Notes under the pieces: generated by a model
The model's database searches: none
What the model saw: the letters and a program-made list of their open reading frames with translations, nothing else
Told to the model about the DNA's origin: nothing
Shown here: piece by piece, positions 25,775-37,768 of the stretch
Numbering within the stretch: the stretch's first letter is position 1
Layout of the letters: each line of letters begins with the position of its first letter
NCBI GenBank assembly: GCA_035536535.1
Contig: DATLNZ010000018.1
Coordinates: forward strand, 1 to 45,251
Source of the DNA: Actinomycetota bacterium
GTDB lineage: Bacteria; Actinomycetota; JAICYB01
Length of the DNA stretch: 45,251 bases
Direction of reading: 5' to 3'
Program-made: the position numbers and the translations under genes

Positions 25775-27010
25775 ATGGGAATCCGCCTGCTCAGCCGCCG
25801 GTCCTCCGCCGCCCGGCGACCCTTGAACGGGTCCGGGACGGGCACCGGCCTGTCCGGAACCGCGCGAATGGACCGCAGGACCAAGGATCTCGTCCGGCGG
25901 GTGAAGCCCGGCAACATCGCGATCATCGACCATGACGACCTGGACCGGGTGGCGGCTGAAAGCCTCCTGGACCACGGGGTCGCCGCTGTGGTCAACGCGC
26001 GGCCCTCGATCTCCGGACGCTACCCCAACCTCGGCCCCCTGATCCTGGTGCACGCGCACATCCCGGTCCTGGACGCGGTCGGTCCGGGAGTGTTCGACGA
26101 GGTGTCGGAGGGCGACGTCGTCCGCCTCGAAGGCGACAAGCTGCTGGTGGACGACCGGGTCGTCGCGCAGGGAGTGCTGCTGGACGAGGCGTCTGTCCTT
26201 CAGAAGATGGAGGCGGCGAAGGCCCAGTTGTCGGCCACCGTCGAGAGGTTCGCCGAGAACACTCTGGACTACGTCCGGCGCGAGCAGGACATCCTTGTCG
26301 AGGGGGTCCGGATTCCGCTGCGCACGCGGTTCAAGGGCCGCCACGCGCTGGTGGTCACGCGCGGCCACCACTACAAGGAGGACCTGCGCGCCCTGCGCGG
26401 CTATATCAAGGAAATGCGTCCGGTCATCGTGGCCGTCGACGGGGCCGCCGACGCCTGCCTCGCCGAGGGAATCAAGCCGGACGTGATCGTCGGCGACGTC
26501 GACTCGGCGTCGGCCGCGGCCCTTCGCAGCGGTGCCGAGCTGCTCGTCCACCCGCAGGGCGAGTGGCGCAGGCGCCACGCCGAGGGGCAGGCCTCCGACG
26601 AGCCCGAAGAGGTGAAGACGGTCCGGAACCTCGGACTGAGCTGCCACGTCATCACGGCCCCCGGAACAAGCGAGGACGTCGCGCTTCTGCTGGCACACGA
26701 GCAGGGGGCCGAGCTTGTCGTGGCGGTGGGATCCCACACGTCCACGATCGAGTTTCTGGACAAAGGACGCGCGGGCATGGCCTCGACATTCCTGGCCAGG
26801 CTCCGGCTCGGGCCGTCGCTGGTGGACGCCAAGGGGGTGTCGCTTCTGTACCGCACCCGTGTGCGGCGGCAGGACCTCCTGCTGCTGGTTGTCGCCGCGG
26901 TCGTGACGATGGCGATAGTCAACTACTTCTCCCCCCCGGCCAGGCTGTTCTGGGGGATCGTCTGGGAGCAGCTGATCGACTTCGTGTTCCGGCTGCGCGG
27001 GCTGTTTTGA
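25775..27010 (+). CDS. steA: Putative cytokinetic ring protein SteA
   Basis: 411 residues. Family features: MDRRTKDLVRRVKPGNIAII near the start, PSISGRYPNLGP, and a thiamine-pyrophosphokinase-like fold (TRGHHYKEDLRALRG, AVDGAADACLAEGIKPDVIV, VGDVDSAS). A C-terminal membrane helix (LLLLVVAAVVTMAIVNYFS) anchors it. In Corynebacterium SteA localises to the division ring and works with SteB in coordinating peptidoglycan hydrolysis during daughter-cell separation; activity as a kinase is not expected. An N-terminal Arg/Ser/Gly-rich extension of about 30 residues precedes the core; the start could lie at ATG 25868 instead. It leads an interlocked cassette of envelope genes. Confidence 0.9.
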   Translation: MGIRLLSRRSSAARRPLNGSGTGTGLSGTARMDRRTKDLVRRVKPGNIAIIDHDDLDRVAAESLLDHGVAAVVNARPSISGRYPNLGPLILVHAHIPVLDAVGPGVFDEVSEGDVVRLEGDKLLVDDRVVAQGVLLDEASVLQKMEAAKAQLSATVERFAENTLDYVRREQDILVEGVRIPLRTRFKGRHALVVTRGHHYKEDLRALRGYIKEMRPVIVAVDGAADACLAEGIKPDVIVGDVDSASAAALRSGAELLVHPQGEWRRRHAEGQASDEPEEVKTVRNLGLSCHVITAPGTSEDVALLLAHEQGAELVVAVGSHTSTIEFLDKGRAGMASTFLARLRLGPSLVDAKGVSLLYRTRVRRQDLLLLVVAAVVTMAIVNYFSPPARLFWGIVWEQLIDFVFRLRGLF

Positions 27011-27933
27011 TCGACTTCCGCTACCACATCGTCTCGATCGTCGCCGTCTTCCTGGCCCTGGGTCTGGGCATCCTGATGGGGACAACCGTCCTGGACCGCG
27101 TGGCCGTCGACGCGCTCCGCGCGCAGGTCGACAACCTGCGGTCGGACGCCCGGGAGTCCAGACGGGACATAACGGCCCTGCGGACAGAAGTGGATCGCCA
27201 GCGCACGTTCGCCGACCAGGTGAGCCCCTGGGTGCGCCACGACCAGCTCGCCGGCAAGCCCGTGGTGTTTGTGTCCGACAACGGCGGGGCGCGCTGGGAC
27301 GACTCGGTCAGGGACGCCATCGCCCAGACCGGGGCACGGCCCGTCGGAGCCATGACCCTCACCGCCAAGTGGAAGTTGGACGCTGCGTCGGCCAGGCAGC
27401 TGCAGTCGGCGACGGCGCCGCTCGGAGCCGCCATGCCTCGCGACAAGCCGGACGAGTCGCCGGACGAGCGCCGGCAGGCGGAGGACGCGCTGACGACGCT
27501 CGGCTCCCAAATCTTCGCCCCGGAAGGGCAGGCCCTTCTGCGGGAGCTCGTACAGAGCGGGTTCGTGGAGGTCGCCGATGCCGACCTCCAGCAGGCCTGG
27601 CCTCCCGCCGGTGCATTGGTGGTGGCCTTCACCGGACCGGACCCGGGGCGGGGCACGGCCTCCTCCAGCCCCGGGTGGGTAGCTTCGCTGGCGCGGGCCA
27701 CGGCCACGGCAACGCCGACCCTCGTGGTCTCACCTGGCGCGGATGCCGGCACCGGCGACGTGACTATCCTGCGCAACCTCCCGGAAACGCCGGCAACGCT
27801 GGTCACCTTCGACGCGGGTTCGCTTTCGTTCGGCCGCCTCGGCTCGGTGCTGGCGCTGGAGTCGGCCGCCGCCGGGCGCGGTGGTCACTTCGGCGTCGAG
27901 CGAGGCAGGCGGCTGCTCCCCGAGCGTCGCTGA
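27007..27933 (+). CDS. MctB/SteB-like membrane protein (copper transporter family)
   Basis: 308 residues. The N-terminus reads IDFRYHIVSIVAVFLALGLG, the characteristic family start, with a single membrane helix ending GILMGTTVL. A coiled coil follows (VDALRAQVDNLRSDARESRR) and then an outer globular domain. M. tuberculosis MctB (Rv1698) has been linked to copper tolerance; the corynebacterial relative SteB partners SteA at the septum. Here linkage to steA favours a division role. TTG start, interlocked with the steA stop (TTGA), exactly at the family start. No copper-binding Cys/Met cluster was noticed. Confidence 0.88.
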   Translation: MIDFRYHIVSIVAVFLALGLGILMGTTVLDRVAVDALRAQVDNLRSDARESRRDITALRTEVDRQRTFADQVSPWVRHDQLAGKPVVFVSDNGGARWDDSVRDAIAQTGARPVGAMTLTAKWKLDAASARQLQSATAPLGAAMPRDKPDESPDERRQAEDALTTLGSQIFAPEGQALLRELVQSGFVEVADADLQQAWPPAGALVVAFTGPDPGRGTASSSPGWVASLARATATATPTLVVSPGADAGTGDVTILRNLPETPATLVTFDAGSLSFGRLGSVLALESAAAGRGGHFGVERGRRLLPERR

Positions 27934-27936
27934 CCA

Positions 27937-29553
27937 GTGGGCCCCGGTCTCCCCGGACAGCCGGTCGCGGCAGAGGAGTCCGAAGCCGGGCTGCTGCGGT
28001 CCTCGGCGTCCATCTCGCTGATCACCGCCGCGGCACGTGTGGCCGGCTTCGCGCGGTGGATCGTGCTCGGGGCGACGGTCGGAGCCACTTACCTCGGCAA
28101 CACCTACCAGACGGCCAACTGGGTGCCGAACATCCTGTTCGAGCTGGCCGCGGGAGGGGTCCTGACGGCGGTGTTCGTCCCGACGTTCGTCGCGGAACTT
28201 GAGCATGGACGGGAGCGGGGGACCGAGGTCGCGGCCAGCATCGCCAACGGACTGCTGTTGCTGTCGCTTCCCCTCGTGGCCGGGGCGATCATCTTCGGAC
28301 GTCCGATCATGCGCGGGCTCACCGTCGGGGTTGCCGACCCGGCCGTGCGTGCCGCGGAAATCGAGCTGGGAGCCTGGTTTCTGCGCTTTTTCGCCCCGCA
28401 GATCCCGCTCTACCTCCTCGGGATGGTCATGACTGGGATCCTGCACGCCCACCGGAAGTTCGTGGCCCCGGCGGCAGCTCCGTTGTTCTCAAGCCTCGTC
28501 GTGATCGCCACGTACCTCGTCTTCCACTCGATGGGACCGCGAGCCGACATCGGCACCGCGACGCGGGAGCAGTTGTACGTCCTGGCCGGCGGAACGACCG
28601 CCGGCGTGGTGGCACTGACCTTCTCGCAGCTCCCGTCGGTTCTCCGGCTGGGTATCAGGTGGCGGCCGGTGCTGAGACTGCGGGACCCTTCCGTGCGCAG
28701 GGCGATGAGAGCCGGAGGATGGGGAATGGCCTTCTTCGCGGTCACCCAGGCCGGTCTGCTGGTCACCCTGATCCTGGCCAACCGGGTCCGCGGGGGCGTG
28801 GTGGCGTACCAGGTCGGCTACGCGCTGTTCATGCTGCCTGTCGCCCTGATTGGGCTGCCGGTGGCGATCTCGCTGTACCCGTCGATGTCCCGCAGCATTG
28901 TCCGACGTGACGAGCAGGGATACGCCAGGGTGCTGTCGCTCGGATGGAGGACCACGGCCCTGCTGGCCGCTCCCGCCGCGGCCGGGCTGGCGGTGCTCGC
29001 TCGTCCGCTGGCGCAGGCACTCGAGACCGCGGGGGCCGCCCGCACCGGGTCCGCTCTTGTCGCCGCTGCGTCGGGAGCGCTGGCTCTGGGACTGCCGGCG
29101 TACGCACTCAACGAGATCCTCGCCCGCGCCTTTTACGCCCGGCGGCAGACGGCTCCGCCCGTCGCCGTCAACGCGGTCGCCATCGGCCTTTACGCATTCG
29201 CCGCCTGCACAATCACGGCTGTTGCGCGCCCCCGTGGAGCCGACGCCGTCGCCGTGATGGGCTGGGCTCACTCGGCCGGGCAGTGGGCCGGCGTGGCGGT
29301 CGGCGTTCTGCTCCTTGCGCGGTCCGCGAGGGTGTGGCGTCCTGCGGGCGACCTCGTGTCGACCGCTGCGAGCGCGGCGCGGGCGGCGGTGATGGCGGCC
29401 TGCGTGTGGTTGGTGGTCCACGCCCTGCGCGCGGTTCCTCCGGCCCCGAGGGTGGCGGCTGGAGTGCTGGCCGGTGCGGCGGTGTTCGGCGTGGCCTGCC
29501 TGTTCTCGCGGGACGCCCGTCTGGCGATGAGCGGGATCCGCAACCGCCGGTGA
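27937..29553 (+). CDS. murJ: MurJ-like lipid II flippase (MOP superfamily)
   Basis: 538 residues with about 14 membrane helices. MurJ-like features: SLITAAARVAGFARWIVLGA near the start, NTYQTANWVPNILFELAAGG with PNILFELAAGGVL (the PNxxRxLxxEG-like motif in variant form), and VAISLYPSMSRSIVRRDEQG. In bacteria these export lipid-linked precursors for peptidoglycan; the actinobacterial relatives also include MviN-like proteins with regulatory domains, absent here. GTG start 3 nt after the mctB-like stop. It is followed at once by GT4 (GTGA overlap). Whether the cargo is lipid II or another lipid-linked glycan made by this cassette cannot be told. Confidence 0.88.
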   Translation: MGPGLPGQPVAAEESEAGLLRSSASISLITAAARVAGFARWIVLGATVGATYLGNTYQTANWVPNILFELAAGGVLTAVFVPTFVAELEHGRERGTEVAASIANGLLLLSLPLVAGAIIFGRPIMRGLTVGVADPAVRAAEIELGAWFLRFFAPQIPLYLLGMVMTGILHAHRKFVAPAAAPLFSSLVVIATYLVFHSMGPRADIGTATREQLYVLAGGTTAGVVALTFSQLPSVLRLGIRWRPVLRLRDPSVRRAMRAGGWGMAFFAVTQAGLLVTLILANRVRGGVVAYQVGYALFMLPVALIGLPVAISLYPSMSRSIVRRDEQGYARVLSLGWRTTALLAAPAAAGLAVLARPLAQALETAGAARTGSALVAAASGALALGLPAYALNEILARAFYARRQTAPPVAVNAVAIGLYAFAACTITAVARPRGADAVAVMGWAHSAGQWAGVAVGVLLLARSARVWRPAGDLVSTAASAARAAVMAACVWLVVHALRAVPPAPRVAAGVLAGAAVFGVACLFSRDARLAMSGIRNRR

Positions 29554-30536
29554 GCGCGCGATCAGTGGTCCACGTGCTGGGGCCGTCGACCGGGGGCATC
29601 CGACGCCACGTCCGCTACCTCGCGCACAACCCGCCCCCGGGCTTCACGACACTGCGGGTCTGCGGGCCGGGGTCTTTGGAGCAGTACTTCGATGGCCTGC
29701 CTTTCGCGCCACTCACGGCCGATGGCATCGCAGATGCCGACGTCGTCCACGCCCACGGCGTGACCGCCGGCAGAGTCGCCCTGCGTCGCCGGCGCCCCCC
29801 GGTGGTTCTGACGCTTCACGTCTACGACGTCGCGGGGGGCCGTCCGGCGCCGGCGCGTGCCGCGCTGCGCATGCTGGCGCCGGCGATTGTCCGGCGGGCC
29901 GATGCGGTCATAGCCGTCAGTGTCGAGATAGCGGCGCGTGTCCCGGGGGCCGTGGTCATTCCGCCCGCCGCCGAGCCGCGCGGAGCCCCCCGCCGCGACA
30001 GACGTGAAGTGCGGGCGGAGCTGGGAGCCGCCGATGACGAGGTCGTGGTGATGTCCATAGCCCGGCTGCATCGCGACAAGTCGCTTCATGTGCTGATCGA
30101 GGCAGCCCGGCTCGCGGGGCTCACGTGCTGGGTCGCCGGCGACGGTCCTCTTCGCGCGGAGCTGGAGCGGCTTGCGCAGGGGACGCGCGTCCGGTTGCTC
30201 GGCTACCGCGACGACGTGTCGGACCTGCTGGGCGCGGCGGACCTGTTCGCCCTGACCTCGCTGGGAGAGGGCTACCCTGTCGTCGTCGTGGAGGCACTGC
30301 AGGCAGGGCTTCCCGTCGTGGCCACTGACGTGGGGGCCGTCCGGGAGATGGTCGGGGACGCCGGCGAGATCGTCGACCCCGGAGATGCGACGGCTCTGGC
30401 TTCGTCGCTAAGCAGGATCGCGGGTAACGATGAGGTCCGGGCCGGACTGATGCGGCGCGCCGGGGCGAGGTCGCTGCCGCAGCCGGAGGAGCTGGTGCGT
30501 CGCGTGGGTGAGGTCTACCAAAGGGTGATGTCGTGA
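29550..30536 (+). CDS. GT4 family glycosyltransferase
   Basis: 328 residues with two Rossmann domains. N-terminal VHVLGPSTGGIRRHVRYLAH, then VVHAHGVTAG; the C-terminal donor domain has MSIARLHRDKSLHVLIEA, GDGPLRAELERLA and the EGYPVVVVEALQAGLPVVAT box (E-x7-E retaining motif). Retaining GT-B fold; donor and acceptor unknown. GTG start interlocked with the murJ stop, and its stop with the next gene, so it is tightly linked to the flippase and the alkaline-phosphatase-fold protein. Probably adds a sugar to a lipid-linked intermediate at the cytoplasmic face. Confidence 0.9.
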   Translation: MSARSVVHVLGPSTGGIRRHVRYLAHNPPPGFTTLRVCGPGSLEQYFDGLPFAPLTADGIADADVVHAHGVTAGRVALRRRRPPVVLTLHVYDVAGGRPAPARAALRMLAPAIVRRADAVIAVSVEIAARVPGAVVIPPAAEPRGAPRRDRREVRAELGAADDEVVVMSIARLHRDKSLHVLIEAARLAGLTCWVAGDGPLRAELERLAQGTRVRLLGYRDDVSDLLGAADLFALTSLGEGYPVVVVEALQAGLPVVATDVGAVREMVGDAGEIVDPGDATALASSLSRIAGNDEVRAGLMRRAGARSLPQPEELVRRVGEVYQRVMS

Positions 30537-32827
30537 ACAGGCCCGTTTCCGGGAGAGCCCGGCGGCGGTCGATCGTCGTGCGGGTGGCGGCCGTGTCCGT
30601 CGCAGCCGCTCTCGGCCTCGTGCCCGATGCCGCCGTCGCGTCGGGGACGGAACCCGAGCGCATAGTCCTTTTTGCCATGCCCGCCGTCACGTGGGACGAC
30701 ATCCGTCCCGCCCGGATGCCCGCGCTCCAGAGCGTCATCTCCCGGGGCGCGGTGGCCGCCATCTCGGTGCGCAGCGCCGCCAGCCGTACCGACCCGGTGA
30801 GGGGTTACATGACTCTGGGGTCCGGCAACCGCGCCTACTCCGACGACGCCGAGCCGCAGGCCCACTTGGCGTTTTCGGCCGATGCGCCGTTCGAGTCGGG
30901 GACGGCCGAACATGCGCTCCGGCGACGGATCGGCCCGACCGGCGCCGAGGCGCCGGAGCCGGCGGACGCCTCGTCCCCCGGACTCGTCCACCTGGGCCTG
31001 CCGTGGCTGGACAAGCAGGCCGCGAGGAGCAACTACGGTACGGCCGTCGGCTCGCTCGGCGAGACCCTTCGTCATGCGGGCGTCCGGAGAGCGGTGGTGA
31101 GCGCCGCCGACACGGCCGTCGACCCCCGCGCGTCCGCCTCACGCCGTCGCGAGGCCGTGCTGGGAATGGTGGACCGGACGGGGCGGGTCGAGGACGGCAC
31201 GGTCTCGGGGCTGTTGCGGACCGATCCGGACGCTCCGTTCGGCGTCTCCACCGACGCGGCGGCCTTTGAAGCCGCCGCCCGAACCGCACTGTCCAGGTCA
31301 AGGGTGGTGCTGCTCGAGCCCGGGGAGACCCTGCGCGCCGACCAGTTCCTGGCCTACGCGAACCCGGACCGCAGGCAGCAACTCGTGACGGGGGCGCTTG
31401 AACGGTCCGACGTGATCCTGTCGAAGATCCTGCCGGCGCTGACCCCGCGCGACCGGCTCTACATCGTGGTTCCGTCCGGGCCCTCGCTGGCCGCGACCGA
31501 GCACCTGACACCGCTCGTCGCCGCCGGCGCCGGTGTCCGACGTGGCTGGCTGACGTCCGCGACCACCCGGCAGCCCGGCATGGCGACGCTGTCGGACGTC
31601 GCCCCCACGGTCCTGGATGCGTTCGGGCTTCGCGCACCAGGCTCCATGACCGGCACCGTCATCTCCTCGATCCGCACCCAGCGGGGAGGCCGGGTGGCGG
31701 ACCTGGCGGCGCTGGACCGCGAATCGGTGTTCCGGGAGCACTTCGCCGCGCAGGCGGTGTACGCGTTTATCACGATGCTGACGCTCCTGTCCCTTCTGTC
31801 GTTTGTCGTCTTTCTGTCGAGATCGCGTGCCTGGAGCAGGCTGCTGACGCCCCTCGCCCTGGCGGTGCTGGCGGTGCCGCCGGCTGCGCTGGTCTGGCGA
31901 GCCGTGGACGCCGACCGTCTGGGCATGACGGGGGCGCACCTGGTGCTGTGGGGCCTGGTAGCCGTGCTCGCTGCGGCCGCGGCTGCCGTCCCCGGCCCCA
32001 GGTGGGCCGGGGGAGTGGCACTGCTGCTGCTGTCGGCCGTCATGCTGTCCGTGGACCTGGCGGCAGGGTCGCCGCTGCAGCTCAACGGGATATTCGGCTT
32101 CTCGCCGATCGTCGCCGGACGCTTTTACGGGATCGGCAACCTGGGCTACGCGATCTTGATGGCCAGCGGGATCCTCGGCCTCACCGGCCTGGTGGAGCTT
32201 CGCGGACTGCCCAGGGCGCCCGCGATCATCGCGGTGGGGCTTGCCGTCCTGGTCCTCGTAGACGGCCTGCCACAGCTGGGGGCAGACTTCGGGGGAGTCC
32301 TCGGGGGAGTCCCCGCCGTGCTTCTGACCTACATGCTCGCGAGGGGCCACCGGGTGAGATGGCCGGTGCTGCTCGCGGCCGGCGCCGCAGCCGTCGCCGT
32401 GGCGTCCGGACTGGCGCTGCTGGACCTGTCCCGGCCCCCGGAGGTGCGGACGCACCTGGGCCGCTTCGCCGCGCGGGTCGCGTCCGGGGGCCTTCCGGCG
32501 CTGGTGACGGTTGTGCGCAGGAAAGCGCAGGCGAACCTGGGAGTCCTCGGCGTCAGTTCATGGACCTACACGATCCCCCTGACGCTGGGCGTCCTGGCAC
32601 TGATGCTCGCGCGGCCGGTCGGGGTGCTGCGAGACGTTCTGCCACGGCACCCGGTCCTGAGGGCCGGGCTCATCGGCGCGATGGCCGCGGGAGTCGGAGG
32701 GTACGCAGTGAACGACTCGGGCATCGCAATCCCGGCGATGGTCCTCGGGCACGTCGTCCCGCTGCTTGTTTTGCTTGCCGTGCAGACTCTTGCACCGAGG
32801 CCCGCCGCCGCTGCGAAAGCCGCGTGA
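30533..32827 (+). CDS. Polytopic membrane protein with alkaline-phosphatase-fold ectodomain
   Basis: 764 residues. A signal-type helix (VRVAAVSVAAALGLVPDAAV) is followed by an outer domain (about 40-390) of alkaline phosphatase/sulfatase fold: VTWDDIRPARMPALQSVI, SRTDPVRGYMTLGSGNRA, and the late strand YIVVPSGPSLAATEHLTPLV with TTRQPGMATLSDVAPTVLDA. The helices from about 405 onward (AFITMLTLLSLLSFVVFLS and at least eight more) form a membrane domain containing GRFYGIGNLGYAIL and GADFGGVLGGVPAVLL. The expected metal ligands are missing: M49-P50 sits where family members have Asp-Gly, and residues 312-318 read VVPSGPS where DHG is expected. H324 remains. It may be inactive or act by another mechanism. 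Interlocked with both neighbours (GTGA). Confidence 0.8.
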   Translation: MNRPVSGRARRRSIVVRVAAVSVAAALGLVPDAAVASGTEPERIVLFAMPAVTWDDIRPARMPALQSVISRGAVAAISVRSAASRTDPVRGYMTLGSGNRAYSDDAEPQAHLAFSADAPFESGTAEHALRRRIGPTGAEAPEPADASSPGLVHLGLPWLDKQAARSNYGTAVGSLGETLRHAGVRRAVVSAADTAVDPRASASRRREAVLGMVDRTGRVEDGTVSGLLRTDPDAPFGVSTDAAAFEAAARTALSRSRVVLLEPGETLRADQFLAYANPDRRQQLVTGALERSDVILSKILPALTPRDRLYIVVPSGPSLAATEHLTPLVAAGAGVRRGWLTSATTRQPGMATLSDVAPTVLDAFGLRAPGSMTGTVISSIRTQRGGRVADLAALDRESVFREHFAAQAVYAFITMLTLLSLLSFVVFLSRSRAWSRLLTPLALAVLAVPPAALVWRAVDADRLGMTGAHLVLWGLVAVLAAAAAAVPGPRWAGGVALLLLSAVMLSVDLAAGSPLQLNGIFGFSPIVAGRFYGIGNLGYAILMASGILGLTGLVELRGLPRAPAIIAVGLAVLVLVDGLPQLGADFGGVLGGVPAVLLTYMLARGHRVRWPVLLAAGAAAVAVASGLALLDLSRPPEVRTHLGRFAARVASGGLPALVTVVRRKAQANLGVLGVSSWTYTIPLTLGVLALMLARPVGVLRDVLPRHPVLRAGLIGAMAAGVGGYAVNDSGIAIPAMVLGHVVPLLVLLAVQTLAPRPAAAAKAA

Positions 32828-33975
32828 CGGCGGCAGTCGCGGTAGCCGCCGCCGCTGCGTCCTGGATCGCCTGCCGGCTGCTGTTTTCCCGTCCACCGGC
32901 TGCTCTGACGGGGGCCAGGCATCTGCGAGTCAACTACCGGGGCAGTGCCATTCCGGGTTCGCTGGGCGTCCTGCTCATCGCCGCTCTGGGCGTGGGCGCC
33001 GCGGGGGCCGCGGTTCTTGATGCGGCGGGTGTCACGGCCACGGGCGCGGCGACCACCGCGGCCGCAGGCGTCGCACTGGGGCTACTGGGCTACGTGGACG
33101 ACGTGTGGGGGAACCGCCGCGCCGGCGGCTTCGGCGGGCACCTGCGCGCGCTGGCCCGCGGCGAGCTGACCACCGGGATGCTCAAGGCGGCCGGAGGAGG
33201 AGTCGTGGGACTGGGTTGCGCGTGGGCCTCCGGTCTGCGCGGCGCCCACCTTCTGGCGGGAGGAGCGATCGTGGCGCTGTCCGCGAACCTGGTCAACCTG
33301 CTGGATCTGCGGCCCGGACGCGCGTGCAAGTTCTGGCTGGTGTCGTGGGCGGCGCTTCTGCTCGCTGGAGTGGCCCCCGGGGCTTTGACCGTCTCAGCCG
33401 CCCTGGCCGGTGGGGTCGGGGCCTTTCTGCCCGTGGACCTGCGGGAGCGCGGAATGCTCGGCGACTCCGGCGCCAACCTCGCGGGGGCTGCCTGGGGGGC
33501 CGCTGCCGTTGCCTCCATCGGCTCCCGCGGGCGCCTGCTGTGCCTGTTCGTGCTCGTCGGGTTGACGGCCGCGTCGGAGGTGGTCTCCTTTAGCCGGCTC
33601 ATCGAGCGCATTCCCCTTTTGCGCGGCTTCGACGCACTGGGGAGGAGGAACCCTCAGGGCCCGGGACACCCGGAGGCCGAAGCCCCGTCCGCCGAAGCGG
33701 AGCCGTTCCAGGGGAGCGAACGAGATCAGGCAGATCATGTGAGCCCTGAAGTAGATCGTGATGCCGACGAAAGTCACCGTATGGAACAGCGCCGCCATCC
33801 ACACGTACAGCCTCCCGACGCGGCCGCGTACGAGCATCAGCAGGGCGGTCAGTTCGAACACGATGATCCCCAACTGCATCAGATGAAGCAGCCGGGGGAA
33901 CTGCAGGAGCGGGTCGGCGAACATCGTCCCTCGCCGGGTGATGGCGGAGATGAGGATGGAACTGGTTATCCATGA
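32824..33975 (+). CDS. MraY/WecA-like polyprenyl-phosphate phosphoglycosyltransferase
   Basis: 383 residues if read to the first stop. Polytopic, with the family's acidic motifs: YVDD (D92-D93), NLVNLLD (N155-D161) and MLGDSGANLAG (D214). These bind Mg and substrate in MraY/WecA/TagO-type enzymes, which put a sugar-1-phosphate onto undecaprenyl phosphate. The family domain ends near residue 275 (LIERIPLLRGFDALGRR, genome ~33650); the remaining ~108 residues are a Gln/Glu/His-rich tail that is antisense to the HTTM gene and looks non-native. Start: GTG interlocked with the previous stop. The true C-terminus may be near 33650-33750; see findings. Confidence 0.75.
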   Translation: MTAAVAVAAAAASWIACRLLFSRPPAALTGARHLRVNYRGSAIPGSLGVLLIAALGVGAAGAAVLDAAGVTATGAATTAAAGVALGLLGYVDDVWGNRRAGGFGGHLRALARGELTTGMLKAAGGGVVGLGCAWASGLRGAHLLAGGAIVALSANLVNLLDLRPGRACKFWLVSWAALLLAGVAPGALTVSAALAGGVGAFLPVDLRERGMLGDSGANLAGAAWGAAAVASIGSRGRLLCLFVLVGLTAASEVVSFSRLIERIPLLRGFDALGRRNPQGPGHPEAEAPSAEAEPFQGSERDQADHVSPEVDRDADESHRMEQRRHPHVQPPDAAAYEHQQGGQFEHDDPQLHQMKQPGELQERVGEHRPSPGDGGDEDGTGYP

Positions 33976-34533
33976 GGGCCCCGACACGAGCATCTTGGTC
34001 ACGCCGGCCAGGAAGTACGTGAGGGCGACCGCCACCTGCACCATCCGCATTGCCCATCCGGCGGCTGCCGAGGTCCCGTCTTCAGCCGTCCACGCCACGG
34101 TGGGCAGGACCGCTAGAGCGACCAGCAGGGCGACGCGGTCGTGGTCCACCTTGCCGTACGAAAAGCCGATCAGGCACCAGTAGCCGTAGAGCAGGGCCAC
34201 GGCGGGGCCGGCCAGCCGGCGCGCCCGGCCGGCGGCGGCAACCAGCGGAATCGATAGCAGGGACACCAGTACCAGCGCCATCCCCACGCGGGTGGGAGCC
34301 GGGATTCCAAGCGCCCTGCCGATCCACAGAGGCGCGTACCACGAGGCAGGAAGAAGTCCGTGGTCGGCCGGAAACCGCGTGAGCACCACGTCCAGTGGCA
34401 CGTACAGGTAGATCAGGACGCGGAACAGCTGCAGGCGCCGCAGGGGGACGGGGTCGTACCAGAACCGGATCCACGCGGAGGTCCCGGCGGAACCGCCCGC
34501 CGGTGGGGCCTCTGGGTCGCGCGCCGCGGTCAC
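33394..34533 (-). CDS. HTTM domain protein (vitamin K-dependent carboxylase-like)
   Basis: 379 residues if read to the first stop. Polytopic membrane protein with the HTTM pattern: RLQLFRVLIYLYVPLDVVLT at the start, MRMVQVAVALTYFLAGVTKM (a family hallmark with K), and PSWITSSILISAITRRG. It ends natively near LERLRFGGRGFG (genome about 33690). HTTM proteins are related to vitamin K-dependent gamma-carboxylase, but most bacterial ones have unknown reactions. The last ~100 codons run antisense into the phosphoglycosyltransferase gene and look non-native. The GTG at 34533 interlocks with the upstream partner's stop (GTGA). Confidence 0.75.
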   Translation of the reverse strand: MTAARDPEAPPAGGSAGTSAWIRFWYDPVPLRRLQLFRVLIYLYVPLDVVLTRFPADHGLLPASWYAPLWIGRALGIPAPTRVGMALVLVSLLSIPLVAAAGRARRLAGPAVALLYGYWCLIGFSYGKVDHDRVALLVALAVLPTVAWTAEDGTSAAAGWAMRMVQVAVALTYFLAGVTKMLVSGPSWITSSILISAITRRGTMFADPLLQFPRLLHLMQLGIIVFELTALLMLVRGRVGRLYVWMAALFHTVTFVGITIYFRAHMICLISFAPLERLRFGGRGFGLRVSRALRVPPPQCVEAAQKGNALDEPAKGDHLRRGRQPDEHEQAQQAPAGADGGNGSGPPGSPREVGAGVAEHSALPQVHGQKGPDPTGQGG

Positions 34534-35030
34534 CGGGGCGGCCAATGCGCCACCTCCGTCACGACCCACCTGATCCCCGGCGGAGGCGCCGCCCTGGCCC
34601 GACGCCCGGCGGCCCGGGGGCCCGGCTGCAGCCGCCCCTCCGACAGCGGCGCCTTTCTGCTGAGCAGATACAGGCGGACGATGCGCCTGTCCGCGGGCGC
34701 CCCGCGGTTGTAGACCCGGATCAGGTCGCCGAGAAGCTCCGGGTGCGCCTGGACCCGCGCCACCTGTCCCTCGACCTCGGCCCGCCGCAGATGAAAGTTC
34801 TCAAAGCCCAGCCGCACGCCACGGCGTCCGTCGCTGAAGTCGGCATTCAGGGCGAGGACCCAGACCGCTCCCCGGGTCCCCTTCGGGAACATGCGCATCT
34901 GCGCGAACGGCCAGGCGTCGTCGGACCAGAAAAGGGTCCCGGCGATCAGTCCGACGGACATGAACACGGCGGCGGCGTCCCGTGCCAGGCGGGACATGGT
35001 CTTTCGCGGGAGGGTGGCTGCGTCAGTCAC
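34530..35030 (-). CDS. Single-helix envelope protein, HTTM partner
   Basis: 166 residues. N-terminal signal anchor (AAAVFMSVGLIAGTLFWSDD), then an outer domain beginning WPFAQMRMFPKGTRGAVWVL, a layout typical of the small proteins encoded next to HTTM genes (DUF5819-like in general form; family not confirmed). Basic Pro-rich C-terminus. GTG start 9 nt after TAAGAT, with GGAG close to the start. Its stop interlocks with the HTTM start. Transcribed divergently from pyrG. Confidence 0.7.
   Translation of the reverse strand: MTDAATLPRKTMSRLARDAAAVFMSVGLIAGTLFWSDDAWPFAQMRMFPKGTRGAVWVLALNADFSDGRRGVRLGFENFHLRRAEVEGQVARVQAHPELLGDLIRVYNRGAPADRRIVRLYLLSRKAPLSEGRLQPGPRAAGRRARAAPPPGIRWVVTEVAHWPPR

Positions 35031-35106: not shown

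Positions 35107-37768
<2,662 letters not shown>

Follow-up and report, generated by a model that had tools for sequence, protein, structure and literature searches.

Why should two proteins known from bacterial cell separation be encoded together with genes of the kind used to build and export lipid-linked sugars? The question is raised by a 45,251-nucleotide stretch of actinomycete DNA (contig DATLNZ010000018.1, assembly GCA_035536535.1; hereafter the window, meaning this whole stretch), in which the genes for SteA and SteB are followed by those for a MurJ-like flippase (MurJL), a family 4 glycosyltransferase (GT4), a membrane protein with an AlkP-fold domain (AlkP-TM), and an MraY-like transferase (MraYL). 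In Corynebacterium and Mycobacterium, a septal complex of SteA and SteB controls RipA/RipC-type NlpC/P60 hydrolases (PMC6705760, PMC12977500), and SteA, also named TapA, has a further septal role as an activator of MtrB (PMC12338722). The cassette probably extends the SteAB cell-separation module by a dedicated pathway for a lipid-linked saccharide, with a functional link between SteAB and that pathway.

Among 150 Actinomycetota genomes, MraYL was found in 66 and SteA in 70, with both present in 64 (odds ratio 416; Fisher p 1e-32, the Fisher tests of co-occurrence ignoring shared ancestry), and all 59 of the 59 pairs located on the same contig were co-directional and 0.9-14 kb apart. At the family level, SteA occurs in 24, MraYL in 23, and both in 22; in Clostridia, SteA and MraYL are encoded by exactly the same 18 of 99 genomes. 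AlkP-TM, sought by its membrane domain alone, was detected in 66 of the 150 actinomycetes, 64 of which also encode SteA. The two genes are unlinked in 42 of these 64 genomes by a 15-kb criterion, a count that includes one genome in which they lie 16 kb apart (G124) and perhaps a few contig breaks; with the linked genomes removed, the odds ratio for AlkP-TM and SteA was still 273. AlkP-TM was also found in 17 of the 99 clostridial genomes—all within the 18 carrying SteA and MraYL, and always at least 26 kb away or on another contig. Since AlkP-TM and SteA co-occur from unlinked loci, inheritance as a neighborhood cannot explain their association.

As determined by tblastn and profile searches of neighborhoods, the order recN-SteA-SteB-MurJL-GT4-AlkP-MraYL-pyrG recurs in tens of genomes from the window's family, Acidimicrobiia, and other deep Actinomycetota, and chance or artefact was therefore rejected as the source of the arrangement. 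The named loci from a scan of species genomes belong largely to Acidimicrobiia, Microthrixaceae, and Aquicultor, with MurJL absent from the Aquicultor loci and MraYL placed between recN and SteA in Microthrixaceae; Nocardiopsis, Cellulomonas, and Clostridia are also represented, their AlkP-TM gene lying elsewhere. The order is SteA-SteB-MraYL-MurJ-GT4 in Thermobifida, Nocardiopsis, Rhizohabitans, Actinotalea, and Cellulomonas, SteA-SteB-GT2-MraYL-pyrG in many other actinomycetes, and SteA-SteB-GT2-MraYL in the Clostridia Peptoclostridium, Tepidibacter, and Alkaliphilus, with spo0A directly upstream in Tepidibacter. A family 2 glycosyltransferase (GT2) thus replaces GT4 in Clostridia and in several actinomycete lineages. 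The first-pass annotation of the window had treated the six genes as one group, whereas the conserved core is SteA-SteB-MraYL plus AlkP-TM, with the glycosyltransferase (GT4 or GT2) and the flippase varying. In two loci (L221 in G092 and L217 in G131), the AlkP, GT4, and MurJ parts are inverted within the SteAB-pyrG interval, and SteA, SteB, and MraYL keep their direction.

Within the window, the six plus-strand open reading frames (ORFs) lie at the positions and in the order first described, and are translationally overlapped, by TTGA at 27007 and by GTGA at 29550, 30533, and 32824, with a spacing of 3 nt between SteB and MurJL (Table 1). The identities proposed earlier for the first four genes were likewise upheld. 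SteA is an NF040608 equivalog (432 bits against a cut-off of 150) that also matches PF12555 and the SteA chains of PDB entries 9hmy and 9hmz (E 6e-63 for 9hmy). The adjoining SteB/MctB protein matches PF11382 over residues 1-300 (175 bits against a cut-off of 25.6) and the CgSteB structure 8au6 (E 2.6e-5); because of its SteA partner and this structure match, the identity SteB was preferred and the label "copper transporter" carried by MctB was set aside. MurJL matches PF03023 with 229 bits, and the GT4 protein matches PF13692, PF00534, and PF13439 (Glycos_transf_1 C-domain plus GT4 N-domain). The fifth and sixth genes, encoding AlkP-TM and MraYL, have no Pfam match of their own.

Table 1. Features of the SteAB-linked cassette in the window.
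Positions	Strand	Feature	Evidence
25775..27010	+	SteA, TPK-like cytoplasmic domain and C-terminal transmembrane (TM) segment	NF040608, PF12555, PDB 9hmy
27007..27933	+	SteB/MctB, single TM segment, coiled coil, and extracytoplasmic domain	PF11382, 8au6; TTG start overlaps SteA stop
27937..29553	+	MurJL, MOP-type flippase, SteAB-linked clade apart from canonical MurJ	PF03023, tree
29550..30536	+	GT4 glycosyltransferase	PF13692/PF00534; same slot in relatives
30533..32827	+	AlkP-TM, degenerate AlkP-fold domain (residues ~40-380) and polytopic membrane domain (~385-755)	Fold match, membrane-domain conservation
32824..33650	+	MraYL, polyprenyl-phosphate sugar-1-phosphate transferase-like, homologous part only	Motif alignment, 5jnq profile, SteA co-occurrence
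33651..33975	+	Remainder of the MraYL ORF, without homology, antisense to HTTM-type ORF	Relatives end at ...DxLGR

The window shares with the SteAB-RipA system of Corynebacterium and Mycobacterium orthologous SteA and SteB in the same order and setting (recN-steA-steB-...-pyrG), and its genome also encodes a RipC-like coiled-coil NlpC/P60 protein; it differs in that SteAB is accompanied by MraYL, a glycosyltransferase, MurJL, and AlkP-TM. The passage of PMC12977500 on SteAB distribution places clostridial SteAB downstream of Spo0A (spo0A-steA-steB) and names no MraY-like or AlkP-like partner. A search of the open literature returned nothing relevant linking SteA/MctB with MraY, MurJ, or a glycosyltransferase, an absence that is no proof of novelty.

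The transferase was examined against its superfamily. MraYL carries the DD, NxxN..D (NLVNLLD), and GDSG motifs originally noted, and in an alignment of 19 sequences, D92-D93, N155, N158, D161, G213-D214, K121, and H106 are invariant, as is the signature P164-G165-R166..K169. These motifs (DD, Asn/Asp motif, GDxG) place MraYL in the PNPT superfamily of MraY/WecA-type enzymes, and they align at the same positions with those of the genome's own MraY and WecA, to which MraYL is 24% and 19% identical, respectively. The MraYL profile reaches MraY 5jnq (E 2.7e-4), and the match to PF00953 (20.8 bits) falls below the cut-off of 27. Unlike MraY, WecA, and TagO, however, MraYL is short (~275 residues), carries NLLDLRPGRAxK in place of DGLDGLA, and, in the same alignment, is missing the C-terminal HHH/HIHH substrate loop, so that it is neither MraY nor WecA proper. 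It is best read as a polyprenyl-phosphate sugar-1-phosphate transferase that is presumably active, its substrate differing from theirs. All relatives end near the equivalent of position 33650 (...DxLGR), and the last ~108 residues of the ORF are without homology; the window's MraYL should end there, a correction to the original gene boundary, and the tail is probably not a functional part. The MraYL ORF shares ~580 bases of open antisense frame with a convergent HTTM-type gene (33394-34569, minus strand; weak PF05090 match), neither frame closing close to where its family homology stops; in close relatives, the MraYL at this place is short. Two large genomes without SteA above the cut-off, perhaps Streptomyces-like, carry, downstream of recN, a divergent MraYL and then GT4 (L214 and L215, in G128 and G107, respectively), a possible remnant with a changed role.

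For AlkP-TM, the first-pass annotation had proposed both an AlkP fold and a part in handling the outer-face product, and the two proposals fared differently. The fold is supported by structure alone: in the AlphaFold model (pLDDT 76 and pTM 0.76 for the whole protein), the N-terminal domain matched phosphopentomutase and iPGM in Foldseek (E 1e-4, probability 1.0), with TM-scores by target of up to 0.51, YejM included. This fold search was used in place of a profile comparison with the window's own phosphopentomutase, which gave a weak result (probability 28.8), and no Pfam or NCBIfam family model matched AlkP-TM. As for the canonical metal ligands (D, D..H, DH, H), the DHG and His ligands were absent from all family members read, the first metal-ligand Asp was present in a minority of them, and the invariant charged residues—R530, H641, R663-K664, and D728—all lie in the C-terminal membrane domain. 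Because of these missing ligands and this placement of the conserved residues, an AlkP-type enzyme at work on the product at the outer face is unsupported. AlkP-TM may nevertheless retain residual enzyme activity, since YejM departs from the canonical AlkP ligands and yet has been reported as a phosphatase (PMC7576196).

AlkP-TM resembles the AlkP-superfamily membrane proteins YejM/PbgA, LtaS, and EptA in fusing an extracytoplasmic AlkP fold to a membrane domain, but differs from them in having the AlkP domain first, followed by a membrane domain of ~10-12 helices, and in lacking DHG and most other metal ligands, with conservation concentrated in the membrane domain. Eukaryotic GPI-ethanolamine-phosphate transferases have a similar architecture of AlkP and membrane domains. 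The membrane domain was modeled with pLDDT 93 and pTM 0.92, and a structure search of this model gave no significant PDB match. A RodA-like match (6pl6, TM-score 0.38-0.41, E 0.84; model m086ed2586cc1) was too weak to use; this likeness, although not significant, is of interest given the glycan-handling role proposed for the domain. Homologues of AlkP-TM also occur beside or near parA-parB in other lineages (L050, L052, L053, and L054), another chromosome-segregation or cell-cycle setting, and directly 3′ of a gene judged from its translation to be murA-like (L057 and L058); tandem duplicates are found within the SteAB locus in L113, L121, and L212.

Taken together as a pathway, MraYL would work at the inner face of the membrane, loading polyprenyl phosphate with a sugar-1-phosphate taken from a UDP-sugar, GT4 (GT2 in other lineages) would add a sugar to the lipid-linked product, MurJL, where present, would flip it, and AlkP-TM would receive or sense it at the outer face via the conserved membrane domain. 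The chemistry and order of these steps are modeled on those of the respective protein families, the coupling to SteAB is suggested by co-occurrence, and the septal site would be that of SteAB in other species. SteA-SteB may be coupled to the pathway through the nucleotide pocket of SteA, which could read the UDP-sugar substrate or the UDP/UMP by-product. In the portion of PMC12977500 devoted to its ligands, CgSteA is reported to be stabilized by GDP and UDP, but not by ADP or triphosphates, and its conserved pocket is predicted to bind carbohydrate. That SteA senses a nucleotide-sugar is a tentative proposal.

A different reading, plausible but on the whole doubtful, is that MraYL, the glycosyltransferase, and MurJL make a secondary wall or surface glycan of the whole cell, and that SteAB co-occurs with them via cell-wall type, without direct coupling at the septum. 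The MraYL superfamily does start glycans of the teichoic-acid and O-antigen types, the glycosyltransferase type differs between lineages as it does for surface glycans, and the family that appears to be mycobacteria-like, with its own arabinogalactan, is without MraYL and AlkP-TM. However, an elaborate polymer would call for more than one or two glycosyltransferase genes, the cassette showed no recognizable polymerase or ligase of a known type, and MraYL still adjoins SteA-SteB in Clostridia, although the other neighbors there are mostly different.

It is also conceivable, if unlikely, that the lipid product is minor and that MraYL acts as a signal generator, its turnover of UDP-sugar and polyprenyl phosphate reporting precursor supply and SteA reading the nucleotide. 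The stabilization of CgSteA by UDP and GDP and its predicted carbohydrate pocket would fit such a role, as would the strict co-occurrence of SteA with MraYL while the glycosyltransferase and flippase vary. On the other hand, a flippase and a glycosyltransferase would be superfluous for a mere sensor, the results on nucleotides and MtSteA given in the same part of PMC12977500 are inconclusive, and SteA works without MraYL in Mycobacteriales.

Whether the cassette simply belongs to core peptidoglycan synthesis, with MurJL serving as an ordinary lipid II flippase and MraYL as an extra MraY, was addressed from the rest of the genome, the neighbors of the relevant genes being named from a reading of their translations. 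MurJL shows homology to MurJ through most of its length, is likewise of the MOP type, and keeps the R18/R24-type arginines; the E. coli MurJ cavity arginines did not separate MurJL from the genome's canonical MurJ and were rejected as a discriminator. However, PF00953 matches number three, namely MraY in the dcw cluster (C152), a WecA type adjoining glyA and ATP synthase genes (C33), and the window's MraYL, and PF03023 matches two MurJ proteins, MurJL and a canonical copy near a pcnA-type nucleotidyltransferase and a trxB-type gene (C154; TIGR01695, 290 bits). The window's flippase and transferase are therefore not the only ones in the genome. In a MurJ tree (FastTree, 60 proteins, midpoint root), all 29 of 29 SteAB-locus copies—from Acidimicrobiia, the window's family, Micrococcales, and Streptosporangiales—form one clade with support of 1.0, apart from the canonical copies, including that of C154. 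MurJL is thus an old paralogue that is not orthologous to canonical murJ, and the suggestion that it could equally be the main MurJ becomes highly improbable. MurJL itself scores 216 bits with TIGR01695, below the equivalog cut-off of 235.55; this cut-off was dropped as a test because another MurJL passes it with 267. With this second copy, an MraYL that differs from the genome's own MraY in sequence and loop, and the almost perfect MraYL-SteA co-occurrence in two phyla, a role in core peptidoglycan synthesis is highly improbable, as the first-pass annotation had suggested. The main checks by which that annotation could have been refuted thus spoke for it.

Least credible of all is that the genes merely persist as part of an old conserved region (tlyA-nadK-recN ... 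pyrG-xerD-scpAB) and have no functional link to SteAB. The flanking genes are indeed conserved too, but SteA, MraYL, and AlkP-TM are variable genes whose losses and retentions coincide, most genomes with both AlkP-TM and SteA carry them at unlinked loci, and in Clostridia the order SteA-SteB-GT2-MraYL is retained although its surroundings are in part different.

Besides the shared ancestry that the Fisher tests ignore, several observations weigh against a dedicated pathway tied to SteAB. The apparently mycobacteria-like family (f25) keeps SteA without MraYL or AlkP-TM, and the SteAB work in Corynebacterium and Mycobacterium needs no such pathway; SteAB can therefore work alone. Conversely, G107 and G128 carry the divergent MraYL without SteA, and G027 and G133 carry AlkP-TM without SteA. 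Furthermore, the activity of MraYL is not certain, because the His loop of MraY/WecA has been lost.

The cell-separation factors SteA and SteB are drug-relevant, and their ligand and ancestral role call for an explanation. A near-obligate MraYL partner, which would consume UDP-sugar and polyprenyl phosphate, yields a testable proposal for the ligand of the UDP/GDP pocket of SteA. If the module with its own saccharide pathway is real, many actinomycetes, and Clostridia next to spo0A, would have a second lipid-carrier pathway beside lipid II, and these bacteria may need a dedicated, undescribed lipid-sugar pathway for their cells to separate. AlkP-TM, for its part, adds a membrane-protein family without a Pfam, NCBIfam, or (for its membrane domain) PDB match. 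A bolder version, possible but speculative, sees ancestral SteAB as the regulatory arm of a SteA-SteB-MraYL-AlkP-TM module by which Actinomycetota and Clostridia make and use, at the division site, a lipid-linked saccharide not yet described. On this view, the membrane domain of AlkP-TM would be a new fold for transferring or sensing glycans, SteA would be a nucleotide-sugar sensor, and Mycobacteriales would have kept the regulator only.

Beyond the cassette, a small protein of 166 residues without a Pfam match is encoded beside the HTTM-type gene (34530-35030, minus strand); in the window, this pair separates MraYL from pyrG, a position in which relatives were not seen to have it. A UPF0020/RlmKL-like methyltransferase gene (36731-37768, minus strand) is located between pyrG and ald.

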